A stretch of DNA of 57,240 nt from Proteobacteria bacterium CG1_02_64_396 (GTDB lineage: Bacteria > Pseudomonadota > MNWR01 > CG1-02-64-396), in NCBI GenBank assembly GCA_001872725.1, contig MNWR01000102.1:1-57240 (forward strand). The letters run 5' to 3'. The position numbers and the translations under genes were made by a program. Below are positions 41,432-49,185 of this stretch, in pieces. Numbering within the stretch: the stretch's first letter is position 1; each line of letters begins with the position of its first letter. A model generated the notes under the pieces. It saw nothing but the letters and a program-made list of their open reading frames with translations, was not told the DNA's origin and ran no database searches.

Positions 41432-42547
41432 CTAACCCGCAAACGAAATCCCCCGCCGCGTCCAAAATGGCTCCCCGGCCCACCGCCGTTCTTGTTGGTA
41501 GTAGTGGCTCCGCTCGTGCAAATACCGCCCCACCGCCCCATTCAGCCGCTGGGCATGGTCCCGCAATCCCGCATCGCTACCCTCCAGCCATTGCCGCATC
41601 GCTTGAGCCCCGGCGATCCCATCGGTCAGGGCAACGTTGATGCCCGACGAGGTCAGGGGATCCATGCCGATGGCGGCATCGCCCAGGGCGATCCAGCCCG
41701 GCCCCGAGACCCGATCAGCAAACCCGGAGTGGGCTGGATAGGCCAGAACCGCCTCCCCTGCACAGCCCCTGTCACTTGGTAGCATGCGGCGCAACTCCTC
41801 GGTTTCATCGATTAAAACCGCCAGATTTTCGGGGTGGGAAAGTTGGTGGGTGTGGATCAAATCGGCGTCCGACATGAAGGCGGTCAGCAGTCTTTTGCCG
41901 GGGATGGCAGCGGCGTACCACCACCCCAGGGGGTGGGACTCAATCAACGATAGGTGGGTCAGGGGGTGGCCATCGGGAGCGGGATGAATCTGGGCCAGCG
42001 CCGTTAATGTGTCGATGCGACGACGTTGGGCCCCCAATCGGGTCGCCAAGGCCGAGCCCCGCCCGGTGGCGTCGATCAGCCCCGTAGCCGCCAACACCCT
42101 GCCCCCCTCCAGCCGCAATCCCCAACCACCATCGGGCAGTGAGCCCACTTCGGTCACTCCACCTTCGATCGCCACGGCGCCGCGCATACGGGCTTGATCC
42201 AGCAACCAGCGGTCGAAGGCGGCCCGGTCCAGATGCCAGCCGTGCCCCTGCGCGTGGACCAGATAATCCTGCTCGGTCACCGCGCCGCCCCCCCACACCG
42301 CCCGGTTGCCATGGCAGGGCAGGTGGCCCAGGGGGCGCAAATCGCCCGGCAAACCGAGCCGTTCCAATAGGGAGGAAACCGAAGGGGTCGCCGATTCCCC
42401 GATCCGGTAACGCTCCGGATCGGGGGGGCGATGGATCAGTGCAACCTTCAACGCAGTCGCGCCGCCGCCCAACAAGGCCAGGGCGGCGGCGCATCCAGCC
42501 GGACCACTTCCGGCAATCGCCACATCGAAGCGGTCCATGGGGGTCAT
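41432..42547 (-). CDS. LodB-like FAD-dependent oxidoreductase
   Basis: The flavoprotein (371 aa) has the N-terminal dinucleotide-binding motif FDVAIAGSGPAGCAAALALL and the second FAD motif GWIALGDAAIGMDPLTSSG, the pattern of the tryptophan-halogenase/geranylgeranyl-reductase group to which LodB and GoxB belong. In known systems LodB is needed to form the cysteine tryptophylquinone of LodA. Here its ATG overlaps the stop of the LodA-like gene (TGATG), which supports the same job. The halogenase motif WxWxIP is not seen. Confidence 0.82.
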   Translation of the reverse strand: MTPMDRFDVAIAGSGPAGCAAALALLGGGATALKVALIHRPPDPERYRIGESATPSVSSLLERLGLPGDLRPLGHLPCHGNRAVWGGGAVTEQDYLVHAQGHGWHLDRAAFDRWLLDQARMRGAVAIEGGVTEVGSLPDGGWGLRLEGGRVLAATGLIDATGRGSALATRLGAQRRRIDTLTALAQIHPAPDGHPLTHLSLIESHPLGWWYAAAIPGKRLLTAFMSDADLIHTHQLSHPENLAVLIDETEELRRMLPSDRGCAGEAVLAYPAHSGFADRVSGPGWIALGDAAIGMDPLTSSGINVALTDGIAGAQAMRQWLEGSDAGLRDHAQRLNGAVGRYLHERSHYYQQERRWAGEPFWTRRGISFAG

Positions 42548-44307
42548 CGGGGATTGGCCCTGGCCACCTCAACCAGCAGCGGCCTGGTTTCATCCCCTTC
42601 GTTGTAGATAAAGCCCAGATCCATCCACTTGACCACCATCTCGGTATCCTGAGAAAACTGGATGAAATCGGCGGCGTTCATGTTGTAGTCGGTGCCGATC
42701 CAGGGGACCTGTTCGATCTCTTTGGCCTGGACCGATTCCCAAATCGAACCCCTGGGTTGGGCATTGGGCACAAGTTTGCGGTAGACGAACAGGGGACGCT
42801 GAGCGGGCCACCACCACACGGTGCGGTCGCCGACGTTTTGGGCCGAACACTCGTTGAAATCGGCCTGCCAGGGGATCGCCATGAATTTGGTGACATCCCC
42901 GGGCTCCAGCCCCTGAAGGGGATCCCAACCCAGGCTTAAGGGGAAGGGGATCTCTGCTTTGGGACGAATGCGGAAAGGGGAGGCGTAGATCTGGGTCAAC
43001 CGCGACACCCAGGTCATCTCGATCCCCGGCGAGAAGGCGCCCCCCACACAGTTTTCGAGGACTGCTTGAGTCAACGCCTGCCCCGCATGGGGGGAGGGGG
43101 GCGTTTCGTCATCGAACCAGCCGTTGGCCCACTGCGCCAGCATGAAGTACTGGGTGTCGGTCAAACGCAGGAACTTCGAGGGGGTTTTGTCGACCGGGCC
43201 AATGCTCGAATCGCCCGCCAGGTAGGGCATCATCGTCCCCCCGGTGGCGCCGCCAATCAGGGTGTTCACATCGTTGGGGGCCCGCATGTAGTCGAGGATG
43301 CGCCGCCGCATGCCGTTCATCCCCGGCGCGGGGTCGCCCAGCATCCCCATGTCGAAGGTGTGGGGCTTGGGGGGGATCGCCACCACCCAGGGGTAGGTTT
43401 GCCCACGGTCCAGAATCGGTTTGATGTCGCGGGCGAAATTGGGCCTGAAGCCATTTGCGCCATCCCGCCACAAGCCATCGGCGTACATGTCGGGGCGGTA
43501 GCCCATCTTGCGCACCGCCACGTCGAAGATGGTGTCGTGCAGGCTGACCAGGTTGAGCACCTGGGGGGCATACGAGGGTGGACCCACCAAGACCCAGGCG
43601 GAGGTCGCCTCAACGGTGGTGCCATTTTTGAAAACCACGGTGGCGGTCACCGGACCATCGGAGGTGTCGTCGAACCAGCCGTCGTTGTTGGCGTAGGTGT
43701 CGATGTTCTCGTGACCGGGCATCGCCCCGGCATGGCCATGGCCACCCAGGACCAACAGTCTTCCCACGCTGTCGGTCCGTAGTCCCCCCAGGGTGTCGAT
43801 GATGAAGGGTTTGATGTTCTCGGGAGGGAAGCGGTGTTTGGCATGTGGCGTCGAGTTGCGGTCGAACTCGGCGCTCTGATCGGCTCCTGAAACGGTGCGC
43901 GGGCCGGGATCGGCGATGAGCCGCTGCCGTGCGGTCGGGTCGGTGATCCCACCATTACGCAGCGGGTGGTTCGAGGCGTAGCCGTCTTCCCCCAGGTTGG
44001 TTTGAAACTCGTACCAAATGGGCTTTTTGTTGGCCAGATGGACCGTCCATCGGATCTCGGCAATCTCGCTGTCTTCCAACGAAACCGGGGTGCAGGAGCC
44101 GTCCTTCTCGGTGCGCATGATTTGAAAGCGGGCCGCCTGGCGTTTGAGCGCCCCATTGGCATCGCGGAAATCCCCAGGTTTGAAGGGGGTGCCGTCGGCA
44201 TTGATGGGTAAACCGGCCACCGTTTCGGGGCCGATGTAGAAATCGTCGCTGATGCCCACCCGGGCCACCCCGATGGCGGGGTAAATCGCATACGTCGTTT
44301 CAGCCAT
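42544..44307 (-). CDS. LodA/GoxA-like oxidase with putative cysteine tryptophylquinone cofactor
   Basis: The protein (587 aa) starts TYAIYPAIGVARVGIS as LodA-type proteins do and carries the family signatures LVLGGHGHAG, ALTQAVLENCVGGAFSPG and IPWQADFNECS..WWWPAQRP. Cys420 is the expected quinone cysteine; the partner is Trp480 or one of Trp498-500, which I cannot decide without alignment. Known members oxidise lysine or glycine, giving hydrogen peroxide. It is shorter than the roughly 700-residue marine lysine oxidase. GAGGGAT precedes the ATG at 44307. No signal peptide. It lies between the ferritin-like and the LodB-like genes. Confidence 0.88.
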   Translation of the reverse strand: MAETTYAIYPAIGVARVGISDDFYIGPETVAGLPINADGTPFKPGDFRDANGALKRQAARFQIMRTEKDGSCTPVSLEDSEIAEIRWTVHLANKKPIWYEFQTNLGEDGYASNHPLRNGGITDPTARQRLIADPGPRTVSGADQSAEFDRNSTPHAKHRFPPENIKPFIIDTLGGLRTDSVGRLLVLGGHGHAGAMPGHENIDTYANNDGWFDDTSDGPVTATVVFKNGTTVEATSAWVLVGPPSYAPQVLNLVSLHDTIFDVAVRKMGYRPDMYADGLWRDGANGFRPNFARDIKPILDRGQTYPWVVAIPPKPHTFDMGMLGDPAPGMNGMRRRILDYMRAPNDVNTLIGGATGGTMMPYLAGDSSIGPVDKTPSKFLRLTDTQYFMLAQWANGWFDDETPPSPHAGQALTQAVLENCVGGAFSPGIEMTWVSRLTQIYASPFRIRPKAEIPFPLSLGWDPLQGLEPGDVTKFMAIPWQADFNECSAQNVGDRTVWWWPAQRPLFVYRKLVPNAQPRGSIWESVQAKEIEQVPWIGTDYNMNAADFIQFSQDTEMVVKWMDLGFIYNEGDETRPLLVEVARANPR

Positions 44308-44358
44308 GGTCGTTATCCCTCTTGTCCTTTTTGCTTTTTGTGGTTGTGTGGGTTGGGC

Positions 44359-45669
44359 TCAGAGGTGCAGTCCCAGGCGTGTGCTGGTCTCTTCGATCCT
44401 GGCGACGTGAGCGGTGACCTGTTGCAACGTTTGCAACAGCGCTTGGTCGCGGCTTGCGGCGGTATCGGCGCCCCGCTGAAGCAGGGCCTTTTTACCCTTA
44501 CGCAGATCCTTCTCGACCGCATGTGTCAACGTTTCAAACCCCTTGAGTTGCTCTTTCAGGGAGCGTTTGTCGTACTGCCAGGTGGGGGCGGCGTTGGGTC
44601 CGATGTTGCCGCTGCCCTCCTTCCAAATCGGGGTCTGCATCAGGTGGACGGCCAGATTGGGCAGATGCTGGTGCATGATCGGCACCACATGTTCGAAGAA
44701 CAGGCGATGGAAACCCTCCCCCTTCTGGAAGGAGTGTTCGAGGCTACGCAGCATCAGCGAATACAGGGCGTTGAATCGTTCGGCCAGGGCCAGCGCCCGG
44801 GGATTGGTTTGGTAATCGTCAAGATTGGGCACCGCGACGATGGGGTAGACATCGGGCAGGGGGGCGACCCCGTCGGCGACCTGCTTGAATTTGAAGTAGT
44901 GGGACTGCTCCAGTGGTGTGCCGATGATCGGGCCATACTGCCCGTCCACCCTTTGGCCGTAATGGTTGTAACTCCCCCACGGTTGCAGCGGGACCAGGGG
45001 ATGCCCCGGTCGCTCCCCCCCTTCGCCCTGTTGCACGATCTGGCGAATGCCTCGCTTGGCCGATTCAAGATCGCGCACCTCGACGATCTGCCCGCCCCCC
45101 CTGCCGAAGTAGTAGTCCTGGTACTGAGCGTAACCCTCGGCGTCGGCAAATATGGTGGTTCCCCGCTGCTGAGCCTGCGCCTCCAGGTACTCGATGCCGT
45201 CCTGAATCGCTTTATAGAACTGCCCGATGGTCTGGATGTTTTGGTTCTCGGGGGGCGACTCAAAGGTGGCGGGGGTTTCGATCCCCATGAAGACCTCTTG
45301 GTAGACCGAGACGGTGGCCTGCCGCAGCCCGATGTAGGGGGTGGTTTTGGGGTCCCCGTTGGGAATGTAGGTGGGGTAGACCGGGGTGAAGGGGCCGGTG
45401 AAACGGGGAATGCCCCCCACCGCCACGAGCAGGTTGGCCGCTTGGTAGACGTGGTACATCTCCTCCATCGCGACACTTGCCGTCAGTCGGAAGGCGTTAC
45501 AGGAACGGTCGGTCATCGAATACAAGGCGGTGGAATAGGCGGGGATGGTCGCGAACTCCAGCGTGACCGCGTTTTGCAGGTAATCGCGCAATTCCTCGAT
45601 GGTCCGGATGGGTTTGTAGTGGTAACTGCTGCTCAAAAACCTCAATTGTTGCTCAAGCTTGCGATCCAT
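44359..45669 (-). CDS. ferritin-like domain protein (VioB N-terminal / iminophenyl-pyruvate dimer synthase type)
   Basis: The protein (436 aa) begins with a segment like the VioB ferritin-like domain: IRTIEELRDYLQNAVTLEFA, IPAYSTALYSM and VAMEEMYHVYQAANLL. A Glu and an ExxH (EMYH) are visible in the first half; the second helix pair is less clear (HSFQKGEGFHRLFFEHV). The VioB domain processes amino-acid-derived imines in violacein synthesis. The rest of VioB is absent, so violacein is not implied. AGGAGA precedes the ATG at 45669. It starts the minus-strand unit feeding into the oxidase. Confidence 0.82.
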   Translation of the reverse strand: MDRKLEQQLRFLSSSYHYKPIRTIEELRDYLQNAVTLEFATIPAYSTALYSMTDRSCNAFRLTASVAMEEMYHVYQAANLLVAVGGIPRFTGPFTPVYPTYIPNGDPKTTPYIGLRQATVSVYQEVFMGIETPATFESPPENQNIQTIGQFYKAIQDGIEYLEAQAQQRGTTIFADAEGYAQYQDYYFGRGGGQIVEVRDLESAKRGIRQIVQQGEGGERPGHPLVPLQPWGSYNHYGQRVDGQYGPIIGTPLEQSHYFKFKQVADGVAPLPDVYPIVAVPNLDDYQTNPRALALAERFNALYSLMLRSLEHSFQKGEGFHRLFFEHVVPIMHQHLPNLAVHLMQTPIWKEGSGNIGPNAAPTWQYDKRSLKEQLKGFETLTHAVEKDLRKGKKALLQRGADTAASRDQALLQTLQQVTAHVARIEETSTRLGLHL

Positions 45670-45911
45670 GGGGCTCTCCTGTAGATCCTGGTTTTGGGGG
45701 AAACTGCCGAAGGAATCCAATGACAGGCAGGTGGGGCGGTGGGCATGACGGACCACAGGATGGCGCGCCAGGGGGGGCGCCCGAATGATCGGGTCGAGGG
45801 GGGGATCAACGGGGGGAAGGTGTGATTCATGAAGAGCCTCGCTGTCCGTGCGTTGCAGATTCAATCCATCGATTGTTCAGTCTTTGATGAAAAAACTTAT
45901 AAAGCAACAGT

Positions 45912-45927
45912 TTAAATGCACATTTAA
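45912..45927. promoter_or_regulatory. 16-bp palindrome, candidate operator
   Basis: TTAAATG (45912-45918) and CATTTAA (45921-45927) are perfect arms with a 2-bp centre. The site sits in the AT-rich part of the divergent region, where a dimeric regulator could control both units. No regulator gene is adjacent. Confidence 0.4.
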
Positions 45928-46051
45928 TCTTGCCTCCTGCCTGAAGGTAGGGAGGATGTTCGAATCTCGTCGACAGGAGGTCGCCCCCCCCCCGCATGCC
46001 CACCTTCCGCCGAATACCCCGGGTTTAATAGGACGATTGTCGTGCCTTCAT

Positions 46052-46076
46052 ACGCGGTCGCATCGTGCGACCGCGT
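46052..46076 (+). promoter_or_regulatory. strong leader hairpin ahead of the beta-barrel gene
   Basis: ACGCGGTCGCA (46052-46062), loop TCG, TGCGACCGCGT (46066-46076): an 11-bp perfect stem about 20 bp before the ribosome-binding site AAGGAG and followed by only TT. It may be an operator, an mRNA-stabilising hairpin or a leader control element; it lacks the T-tract needed for a terminator. Confidence 0.45.
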
Positions 46077-46106
46077 TTCACGCAGGGATATCAAGGAGAG
46101 CGCACC

Positions 46107-46940
46107 ATGAACACAAGCTTCCGCGCAGCAGCCCCGTCCGTTCAGGTTCAAGAGGGGCTTGGCCCCCTGGCCGAATTGCCCGGTACCTGGGTCGGTTCGG
46201 GATTCAACCTGATCGCCTTGCCCAATTTCGAGGGGGGGAGCGATTTTCGGCTCAAGCTCAACGCCACGGCCGAAAGCCTGAGCTTCACCGTCATCGGGGC
46301 GCCGATCCCGAATCGGGGTTCGGCACAGAGCGACATCTCGTACCTGGGGCTGCACTATCTCCAGCAGGTCAACGATGCCCAGACCCACGAAGGGCTGCAC
46401 ATCGAGCCGGGTTTATGGCTCAACATTCCGGCCACCACCGATCCGGATCAACCCCCCACCCTGGTGCGTCAGGCCAGCGTCCCCCACGGCGATTCGCTCC
46501 TGGCCCAGGGGTCGACCATCACGATTCAAGAGGGACCGGTATTCGAGCCGGTCTCCACCACGCCGATCATCATTCCGCCCAAAACGATTCCCACGCTCGG
46601 CTACTTCGATCCCTACAGCAATCCGAACCTTCCCCCCGGCATCTCCCGGGCTGCCGTCGCCAATCCCAACCTGATTTTGGAAGAGGCCATCCAAGGGCAG
46701 ACCATCACCTCGACCACGGTCATCTCGGTTTCGACCGAACCTGTGGGGGGTATCGTCAACATCCCCTTCATCCAGACCAACGCCAATGCCACCCGCATGG
46801 AATCGATCTTCTGGGTTGAAACGATCCAAAATCAGGACGGCAGTCAGACGCTGCAATTGCAGTACAGCCAGACCGTGATCCTGAATTTTCTGGGTATCGA
46901 CTGGCCCCACGTTTCGGTGGGGACGTTGTTGAAGCAATAA
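46107..46940 (+). CDS. putative beta-barrel (heme-binding/nitrobindin-like) protein
   Basis: The 277-residue protein has no signal peptide; AAGGAG precedes the ATG at 46107. GPLAELPGTWVGSGFNLIAL near residues 17-36 is reminiscent of the first strand of nitrobindin/lipocalin-like barrels (L..L.GTW.G.G), and alternating hydrophobic strands follow. TYLQQV-like (LHYLQQVND) and LHIEPGLWLN segments occur in proteins I have seen annotated as heme-binding. This is recollection rather than proof; no clear heme ligand can be named. It is divergent from the ferritin-like gene and 62 bp before the dioxygenase gene. Confidence 0.68.
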   Translation: MNTSFRAAAPSVQVQEGLGPLAELPGTWVGSGFNLIALPNFEGGSDFRLKLNATAESLSFTVIGAPIPNRGSAQSDISYLGLHYLQQVNDAQTHEGLHIEPGLWLNIPATTDPDQPPTLVRQASVPHGDSLLAQGSTITIQEGPVFEPVSTTPIIIPPKTIPTLGYFDPYSNPNLPPGISRAAVANPNLILEEAIQGQTITSTTVISVSTEPVGGIVNIPFIQTNANATRMESIFWVETIQNQDGSQTLQLQYSQTVILNFLGIDWPHVSVGTLLKQ

Positions 46941-46949
46941 CGAAAAAAG

Positions 46950-46980
46950 ACCGGGGCTTGCGCTGCCTGCGAGCCCCGGT
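46950..46980. terminator. hairpin between the beta-barrel and dioxygenase genes
   Basis: ACCGGGGCT (46950-46958) pairs with AGCCCCGGT (46972-46980), 9-bp stem. The minus-strand version is followed by six T, the plus-strand version only by TTTG, so it may be a partial terminator or attenuator separating the two genes. Confidence 0.4.
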
Positions 46981-47002
46981 TTGCCATTCAAAGGAGCGCC
47001 TC

Positions 47003-48034
47003 ATGCCCGAAGCCCTCGCCGCCGTTACCTCCCGAGACCTCGGTGCCCTGGGCATCCTCCACCTGCGTCGCATGTGGGCCCGCACCCGACTGACGGTACA
47101 GGGTTCTGCCGTTGAAAAGGCTGACGAGGAGTGGCTCCTCGACAACCTGGTTTTCGACGGATTGGGGTTGGGTCTGGAGCCGACGATCCAGTTTCTGCAT
47201 GGCGGTGCCGCGTCGTACGAGGATTTCGAGCGCTGGATTTTGGAGCAGGGCGATGGCGGACTCGATCCGGCCCGGCGTGAACGGATCAACCGGGCAATCC
47301 GGGCGGTGCTCGATCCCGAGGTTGTCGGTCCGACCCTTGAGACCTTGAACAACCACCCCGAACCGGTTTTGAGCCAAGAGGATCTGGCCCACTTCGAGGC
47401 GCACGGCTACGTCGTACTGAAAAACGCGGTGCCCACAGGGGGGGCTGCGGCGGCGGCCCAGGCGGTGTGGGATCACCTGGGGGCCAGCCCCGATGATGTC
47501 GAGAGCTGGTACCGTCCCAAGGTGGCGCAGCAAAAGATCATGGTGCAGCTCTTTCAACACCCAGCGCTGGAGGCCAATCGGCAATCGCCCCGCATCCACC
47601 GCGCCTTTGCCCAGTTGTGGCAGACCGAAAAGCTCTGGGTCACCACCGACCGGGTCAGCTTCAATCCCCCGGAGCGGCACGACTACCGGTTCCCTGGTCC
47701 CGACCTGCATTGGGACGCCTACTTCACCATCCCCTTTGCATTCGGGCTGCAAGGGGTGCTCTACCTGACCGATACCGAGGCGGAGCAGGGGGCCTTCACC
47801 TGTGTGCCCGGTTTTCATCACCGCATCGACGCATGGCTCGCCGCGTTGCCCAAGGGGAGTGATCCGCAGATGCAGGATTTACATGCCCTGGGGCCGAAGC
47901 CGATCCCCGGCAAGGGGGGCGACATGGTCATCTGGCACCATGGCCTCCCCCACGGCAGCCGCCCCAACCGCGCTTCGGTGCCCCGGTTGGTGCAGTACAT
48001 CAAGCTCTATCCGGTGCATCACGTCGGGTTGTAG
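47003..48034 (+). CDS. PhyH-type Fe(II)/2-oxoglutarate dioxygenase with extra N-terminal domain
   Basis: The protein (343 aa) carries a double-stranded beta-helix from about 125: metal ligands in LHWDAYF (HxD) and HHGLPHGSRPNRA (distal His and the 2-oxoglutarate-binding Arg), with CVPGFHHRID between. The first 120 residues (RRMWARTRLTVQGSAVEKAD, LLDNLVFDGLGLGLEPTIQF) match no domain I know. AAAGGAG precedes the ATG at 47003. Probably co-transcribed with the beta-barrel gene and part of the LodA cluster, where it could hydroxylate the substrate or product. Confidence 0.82.
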   Translation: MPEALAAVTSRDLGALGILHLRRMWARTRLTVQGSAVEKADEEWLLDNLVFDGLGLGLEPTIQFLHGGAASYEDFERWILEQGDGGLDPARRERINRAIRAVLDPEVVGPTLETLNNHPEPVLSQEDLAHFEAHGYVVLKNAVPTGGAAAAAQAVWDHLGASPDDVESWYRPKVAQQKIMVQLFQHPALEANRQSPRIHRAFAQLWQTEKLWVTTDRVSFNPPERHDYRFPGPDLHWDAYFTIPFAFGLQGVLYLTDTEAEQGAFTCVPGFHHRIDAWLAALPKGSDPQMQDLHALGPKPIPGKGGDMVIWHHGLPHGSRPNRASVPRLVQYIKLYPVHHVGL

Positions 48035-48189: not shown

Positions 48190-48597
48190 CTACGAAAACC
48201 ACCTTAAAAATGCCGCCGCCGTCAAAGCGGTCGCCCCGAGGGCCAGCGATACCCCCCAAACCGTGCGGGGGTGAACCAGGGGGCCGACCGCTTGGCGCCA
48301 CCAATACAGGGCGGCGATGGCAAAGCCCAACCCGGCGCAAACCACCTTGATGCCCAGCGCGGCGACGGCGATGCCGTGGATGTCGGGGAAGTGGCCGTAG
48401 TAGTAGAGGCTGGTGGCTCCAAAGGCCCCCCCCGCAGCCACCTGCACCGCCCAGGCGATTGCCAGCCACAGCGCCAGGCGCCGATGGCTGGAGATCGAAG
48501 CCTGGACCCGCCACACCCCGATGGTCGCCAGCCCCACAATCGCCACCGCTCCGAAGTTATGGATCACCTGAATCAAGGCATAGAGAAGGTTCTGCAT
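48190..48597 (-). CDS. four-helix membrane protein
   Basis: The protein (135 aa) has four hydrophobic helices (about 5-27, 40-62, 72-98, 110-132). Histidines near the first helix and the second loop (QVIHNFGAV, YYGHFPDIHG) could be heme or metal ligands as in CopD-like proteins, but I cannot assign the family. It starts 9 bp after the stop of the secreted protein gene, so the two form an operon. Confidence 0.72.
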   Translation of the reverse strand: MQNLLYALIQVIHNFGAVAIVGLATIGVWRVQASISSHRRLALWLAIAWAVQVAAGGAFGATSLYYYGHFPDIHGIAVAALGIKVVCAGLGFAIAALYWWRQAVGPLVHPRTVWGVSLALGATALTAAAFLRWFS

Positions 48598-48606
48598 GGC
48601 GGCCCC

Positions 48607-49026
48607 CTACTGCACGGTGAACGATACGGAGGTTTCGATCCCGGTCAGGGTGTGGCTGGAGGTCGCCTCCTTGACCGCCACGGTGTGTTTGCCGGGGGTC
48701 AGGTCGGGCAGCGGCACCTTGCAGGGGCAGCGGGTCACGTCGTGGGTAATGATCGGGTTTTGGTCGTCGACGTAGACGTGCAGGTGGTTGCCGTTGGGTC
48801 CCAACGTCACCTCGTAGCGCAGCACGACGCCGCTGCCCCCCATCAAGGTTTCGCCCTGCTTGGGCGAGAGGAGGGTGATCGCTCCGCCGCCCTCGCCCCC
48901 CTGCGCCATCGGCATCGTTGGGACCTCTTTGGGGCCATAGCCCGAGGCCGAGGCGCCTGAGACCATCAGCAGCAGCGTGCAGGTCATCAACGCGGTGGGA
49001 ATCGCAGCGAAAGGTCTGTTTTTCAT
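48607..49026 (-). CDS. exported small beta-sandwich-like protein
   Basis: The protein (139 aa) has a signal peptide (MKNRPFAAIPTALMTCTLLL, cleavage near ASA before SGYG). The mature part has GNHLHVYVDDQNP followed by TRCPCKVPLPDLTPGKHTV, consistent with a small Ig-like fold and with His and CPC residues that might bind a metal such as copper; this is inference. A Gly-rich linker lies near 45-52. AAGGAGA precedes the ATG at 49026. First gene of the pair with the membrane protein. Confidence 0.75.
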   Translation of the reverse strand: MKNRPFAAIPTALMTCTLLLMVSGASASGYGPKEVPTMPMAQGGEGGGAITLLSPKQGETLMGGSGVVLRYEVTLGPNGNHLHVYVDDQNPIITHDVTRCPCKVPLPDLTPGKHTVAVKEATSSHTLTGIETSVSFTVQ

Positions 49027-49185
49027 GGCCGTCTCCTTTGTGGGAACACCCGCGGGGCATGGAGGGATCGATACGGGCATCGTCCTCCACTTTGGGGTTA
49101 TGGAGACCTTGATTATTGAAATAAGTGCCTGATTTCATTGTTGAAAATATGGGGTTCATCCGTGCGAGCCCGACCCGACCCCCGG

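Follow-up and report, generated by a model that had tools for sequence, protein, structure and literature searches.

A conserved bacterial cassette of a ferritin-like protein, LodA and LodB, often with a heme beta-barrel protein: a possible peroxide-managing quinoprotein oxidase unit

Why does the gene of a putative quinoprotein oxidase lie among genes for an iron protein, a heme protein and a 2-oxoglutarate dioxygenase? The question is raised by positions 41432 to 48034 of contig MNWR01000102.1 (assembly GCA_001872725.1, Proteobacteria bacterium CG1_02_64_396). Positions 1 to 57,240 of this contig, the whole stretch of DNA that was analysed, are called the window here. Gene content, linkage, cofactor residues, the fold of the heme protein and candidate metal ligands of the iron protein were computed here. 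Five intact open reading frames were found in the locus, and the families that a first-pass annotation had named from the sequence were confirmed by Pfam and NCBIfam. They encode a LodA-family oxidase, its LodB-type maturase, a ferritin-like protein of family PF12902 (FER), a heme-binding beta-barrel protein of the FMP type (FMP) and a PhyH-family dioxygenase. FER-LodA-LodB is a real, widely conserved bacterial operon, to which the linkage of FMP is supported; the PhyH gene lies outside it. The best explanation, to which we give an even chance, is that the cassette is a peroxide-managing quinoprotein oxidase unit, in which LodA releases hydrogen peroxide and FMP and FER are its dedicated peroxide partners.

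We scanned 84,980 genomes and took the best 80 LodA loci, chosen by similarity to the window, a sample that says little on distant LodAs in general. Together with two plasmid loci, one genome of the same phylum and the window, these make up the compared loci, cited below by L numbers where needed. The LodA loci split into two sets, one with FER (LodAs of about 47% identity or higher) and one without it (more distant LodAs). In the first set the PF12902 gene sits immediately upstream of LodA on the same strand, with LodB downstream. FER is beside LodA in 37 of the 38 members of this subclade, one contig-split case counted, and beside none of the 42 LodAs outside it. The cassette was found in alpha-, beta- and gammaproteobacteria, Calothrix, Nonomuraea, Kutzneria and one acidobacterium, and thus in Pseudomonadota, Cyanobacteria, Actinobacteria and Acidobacteria. 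FER presence changes twice on the LodA tree (80 rows; a quick tree with no bootstraps), which suggests that FER and LodA have been largely co-inherited. One genome (L021) holds LodA and LodB without FER, and PF12902 was not found anywhere in it. An all-against-all comparison of neighbouring genes yielded no further conserved cassette gene except lineage-specific di-haem and Hint-domain genes of Azospirillum and Methylocystaceae; it also returned widespread families scattered among the loci. The first-pass annotation had named conserved co-occurrence of the five genes in unrelated genera as a check on its reading. FER-LodA-LodB passes this check with 37 loci and FMP with 12 and three contig-split cases; PhyH fails it, being adjacent at none.

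A fungal precedent exists. The group V lodA/lodB genes of fungi, published in 2015, have a ferritin-like (PF12902) gene at the same locus as LodA-like and LodB-like genes, but there lodB is oppositely oriented, the observation was reported without a function, and FMP is unmentioned (PMC4417212). The same paper describes LodAs fused to catalase-fold or iron-redox domains. The earlier statement that known LodA operons need only LodB therefore leaves out both the fungal neighbours and these fusions. No description of the bacterial FER-LodA-LodB cassette or of an FMP partner was found in searchable papers, a set outside which most subscription journals fall; on LodA with ferritin-like proteins and on FMP-type peroxidases, PMC4417212 alone proved relevant. 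A bacterial cassette with conserved iron and heme partners, representing a LodA subfamily, thus appears to be undescribed. The subfamily is marked in three independent ways, namely by the tree, by a serine discussed below and by its near-obligate ferritin-like neighbour, and it gains a second conserved partner of nitrobindin-like predicted fold.

The oxidase itself (42544..44307, minus strand, 587 residues) matches Pfam LodA_N (3.9e-67) and LodA_C (5.1e-43), both over their cut-offs, and scores under the NCBIfam equivalog cut-offs for LodA (404 of 600 bits) and GoxA (243 of 750 bits). The LodB/GoxB-type flavin-dependent maturase (41432..42547, minus strand, 371 residues) also falls under the equivalog cut-offs in its matches to NCBIfam GoxB (1.3e-70) and LodB (6.6e-68). 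LodB lies directly downstream of LodA in nearly all related loci. In LodA the cysteine tryptophylquinone (CTQ) is made up of C516 and W581 (PMC4417212). Alignment to 3WEU and 2YMW, in native numbering, equates C487, W500 and D483 of the window protein with C516, W581 and D512 of LodA, and all three are kept in 80/80 aligned LodAs. The cofactor pair that had been expected is therefore intact, with Cys487 and Trp500 as its members. Cys420, which the first-pass annotation had put forward, is rejected as the CTQ cysteine by the 3WEU numbering and by its absence from most LodAs outside the subclade (present in 37/38 subclade members and 8/42 others).

The lysine epsilon-oxidase system of Marinomonas mediterranea (LodA/LodB) and GoxA/GoxB share with the window LodA_N, LodA_C, the CTQ Cys/Trp/Asp residues and an adjoining LodB-type maturase. 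The window protein differs from Marinomonas LodA in length (about 587 against 726 residues), and from LodA and GoxA in its sub-equivalog scores, in belonging to a subclade nearly always accompanied by FER and often by FMP, and in carrying Ser426 at the position of LodA C448. This position is Ser in 36 of 38 subclade members, Cys in 36 of 42 others and His in the PlGoxA alignment (chain residue 583). With Ser instead of Cys here, a different substrate or different kinetics is plausible for the Ser426-type LodAs. We note that Ramlibacter sp. WS9 has a second, distant LodA-LodB pair (L033:12003-15156; 35% identity) convergent with its FER-type cassette.

FER (44359..45669, minus strand, 436 residues; Pfam 2.2e-40) had been described as of the VioB N-terminal type. 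Its profile instead aligns to VioB residues 595-936, in the C-terminal half, with EExxH-type, QGEG and SHF motifs kept. On this match FER is, as judged from sequence, the C-terminal half of VioB in the form of a separate protein. It falls short of the two-half VioB of about 1000 residues, having 436 residues against 998 and lacking the N-terminal stretch of some 590. VioB and FER have in common the PF12902 domain and the same candidate metal ligands; the partner oxidase of FER is a quinoprotein, that of VioB the flavoprotein VioA. Seven residues are invariant in 32 FER homologues, and E38, E69/E70, H73, E131, E216 and H257 are candidate metal ligands. A structural model built from 32 sequences (predicted local distance difference test, pLDDT, 86) has as its best PDB fold 3HL1, a ferritin-like structure from Caulobacter (E 1e-8). 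Bacterioferritins and Dps follow weakly, and the bacterioferritin profile match has E 0.0045. The four-helix fold of the model and the carboxylate and His candidate ligands fit the diiron ferritin-like superfamily, as a member of which FER would bind two iron atoms.

No vioA, vioC, vioD or vioE partner lies beside the window cassette. In Chromobacterium vaccinii (L037:6812-19301) an FMP-FER-LodA-LodB operon is convergent with a complete vioABCDE, 65 bases from vioE, and overlapping contig ends of C. piscinae (L027 and L194) give the same arrangement. A vio operon adjoins the cassette in these two Chromobacterium genomes only. Elsewhere, PF12902 proteins occur with an ebo cluster in Aureibacter (L167), R-body genes in Burkholderia pyrrocinia (L166) and a tyrosinase gene in Acaryochloris (L165); beside these three genes neither a LodA-type nor a GMC-type oxidase was recognised.

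FMP (46107..46940, plus strand, 277 residues) scores 300 bits against the 150-bit cut-off of heme-binding family NF040572 (1.8e-89). No sequence match to the PDB was found with the single sequence or with a profile, nitrobindins included. An AlphaFold2 model from 12 sequences (pLDDT 78.6; predicted template modelling score 0.82) gave nine PDB matches at E<=0.001, all of them nitrobindins, with template modelling scores (by target) of 0.67-0.71. FMP is thus predicted to have the nitrobindin fold, a heme beta-barrel, in line with the earlier description of a divergent putative heme-barrel protein. The C-terminal PH motif is invariant (12/12 sequences), and its H268 is a candidate for the proximal His that would bind heme. 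With nitrobindins and the NCBIfam FMP family the window protein shares the predicted heme beta-barrel and this motif; it is longer (about 277 residues against ~155). The idea that FMP supplies the missing half of VioB was rejected, the FMP profile giving no match to VioB.

An FMP homologue sits in the cassette at 12 loci, the window counted, and three more are inferred across contig breaks. Its placement relative to the FER-LodA-LodB genes varies in three ways. It precedes FER on the 5′ side in Chromobacterium, Ramlibacter, Halomonas, Saccharospirillum and Oceanobacter, follows LodB on the 3′ side in Burkholderia sp. Bp8963 and Oceanospirillum, and is divergent in the window, the sole such case among the compared loci. 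Full-length FMP occurs in 16/37 genomes with related LodAs against 3/399 genomes of the phylum, among which is the genome of the window (Fisher p 2e-16, relatedness ignored). Its presence changes eight times on the 80-row LodA tree, that is, by repeated gain or loss. The FMPs of two cassettes (L029, L036) and one encoded elsewhere in the genome of L014 (L150) reach 541-612 bits and so lie far over the cut-off (300 bits) set for the NF040571 equivalog "peroxidase, FMP-type". The linkage of FMP to the LodA cassette is supported by the co-located and contig-split loci and by these scores of its relatives.

In the mechanism that we infer, which covers the reaction, its substrate and what FER and FMP do, LodA would carry a CTQ made with the help of LodB and would oxidise a primary amine or amino acid, releasing hydrogen peroxide. 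FMP would act on this peroxide as a heme peroxidase, and FER, as a non-heme iron protein, would destroy it or put it to use. That the iron and heme proteins probably deal with the peroxide of the oxidase is suggested by the company they keep elsewhere. FER is found directly downstream of a GMC oxidoreductase in Rhizobium, Sinorhizobium, Pseudoalteromonas and Gloeothece plasmids, the Gloeothece locus having a Dyp-type peroxidase nearby, and in Agrobacterium and Pararhizobium both FER and FMP belong to the same row of genes as GMC oxidoreductases. The Rhizobiaceae operons among these share the FER family (in Agrobacterium and Pararhizobium also the FMP family) with the window, but a flavin adenine dinucleotide (FAD) oxidoreductase replaces the CTQ oxidase and other genes of sugar metabolism are present. 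GMC enzymes depend on FAD, lack CTQ and do not form an imine from an amine. Any need that they have in common with LodA is therefore likely to be the handling of hydrogen peroxide. GMC glycoside 3-oxidases are reported to produce hydrogen peroxide (PMC10646112). The GMC-FER loci L156, L157, L160, L162, L163 and L199 most often include genes for a small unnamed protein, an iolE-like protein and a sugar isomerase.

In the Azospirillum and Methylocystaceae cassettes (L009, L010, L015-L018, L046) FMP is replaced by a divergent di-haem putative peroxidase (PF06537). These cassettes also have a downstream Hint-domain protein, except L017, which runs off its contig. The genome of the window gave no match to a haem catalase, a KatG-type peroxidase or an Mn catalase. 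The GMC neighbours, the di-haem replacement, the catalase-fold LodA fusions and this lack of catalase and KatG together favour the handling of hydrogen peroxide over the processing of an imine. The occurrence of FER and FMP beside both LodA and GMC enzymes points to an exchangeable peroxide-handling module and opens the question of what PF12902 proteins do, the half of VioB among them, to direct test. The first-pass annotation had proposed a pathway that processes the imine or oxidised product and had left peroxide protection open; the former is disfavoured, since the GMC oxidoreductases that FER and FMP likewise accompany depend on FAD and are no amine oxidases, and the latter is the better supported of the two, although unproven.

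Several observations weigh against the peroxide-managing unit. The window FMP reaches 82 of the 300 bits of NF040571, and the label "peroxidase" is that of NCBI, its primary source not being found in the papers searched. Over half of the cassettes are without FMP. The GMC partners might be dehydrogenases instead of oxidases, and about half of the inspected non-LodA PF12902 loci have no GMC neighbour. Two CCP/MauG-type peroxidases are encoded elsewhere in the genome of the window, so peroxidases are present. Finally, VioB has the fold and candidate ligands of FER, and VioB makes a carbon–carbon bond.

This last point leads to an alternative that we regard as unlikely, in which FER, as a diiron half-VioB, would couple or oxidise the imine or aldehyde from LodA with O2 or hydrogen peroxide to build a small product, the CTQ oxidase taking the place of VioA and FMP adding a heme oxidation. 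VioB acts on the imine of indole-3-pyruvate. Such a role for FER has some appeal because VioB itself consumes the product of an oxidase, and the retained VioB motifs and the adjoining, convergent vioABCDE of the two Chromobacterium species are consistent with it. However, some 590 residues at the start of VioB are missing from FER, the cassette has no other biosynthetic gene as a conserved neighbour, and the GMC oxidoreductases with which FER and FMP also pair have products that are not imines. If true, this alternative would make the widespread cassette an unrecognised minimal biosynthetic system.

It is similarly improbable that FER serves as an additional factor in the maturation or assembly of the LodAs of the subclade, contributing for example iron/O2 chemistry to CTQ formation with LodB. 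The idea arises because FER, unlike FMP, is nearly invariant in the subclade, and FER is directly upstream of LodA. Against this, the Marinomonas LodA operon is described as lodA and lodB only (PMC4417212), the L021 genome has the pair with no FER anywhere, and the FER family also occurs beside FAD-dependent GMC oxidoreductases, which need no CTQ. A five-enzyme pathway that includes PhyH is very improbable: the gene (47003..48034, plus strand, 343 residues; PF05721 6.1e-12) follows FMP on its strand after a gap of 62 bases and has the H-x-D and distal His of its fold, but no homologue lies beside any related LodA locus, and a strong one occurs in 1/24 genomes with related LodAs, on another contig, against 7/398 in the background (Fisher p 0.38).

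PhyH, never adjacent and not enriched in the genomes of relatives, was dropped as a cassette member and is a neighbour only. Of the plus-strand pair that had been linked to the oxidase by divergence and proximity, FMP thus keeps its place, being found at the same locus in relatives, and PhyH does not. In the window the peroxide-managing unit would comprise two transcription units. On the minus strand the order of transcription is FER, LodA, LodB, with a gap of 51 bases between FER and LodA and an overlap of 4 bases between LodA and LodB; the ATG of FER at 45669 is preceded by AGGAG. FMP diverges from FER across 437 bases (45670..46106), presumed to hold the promoters of both units; a promoter scan gave no sigma-70 consensus there. 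The genome of the window has a single copy each of lodA, FMP and PF12902, and its nearest relatives among the comparison genomes are at phylum level only. Beyond PhyH, two small genes lie on the minus strand at 48190-49080, one of which probably encodes a membrane protein and has a weak DUF420 match, the other having a sub-threshold DUF6130/CopC-like match.

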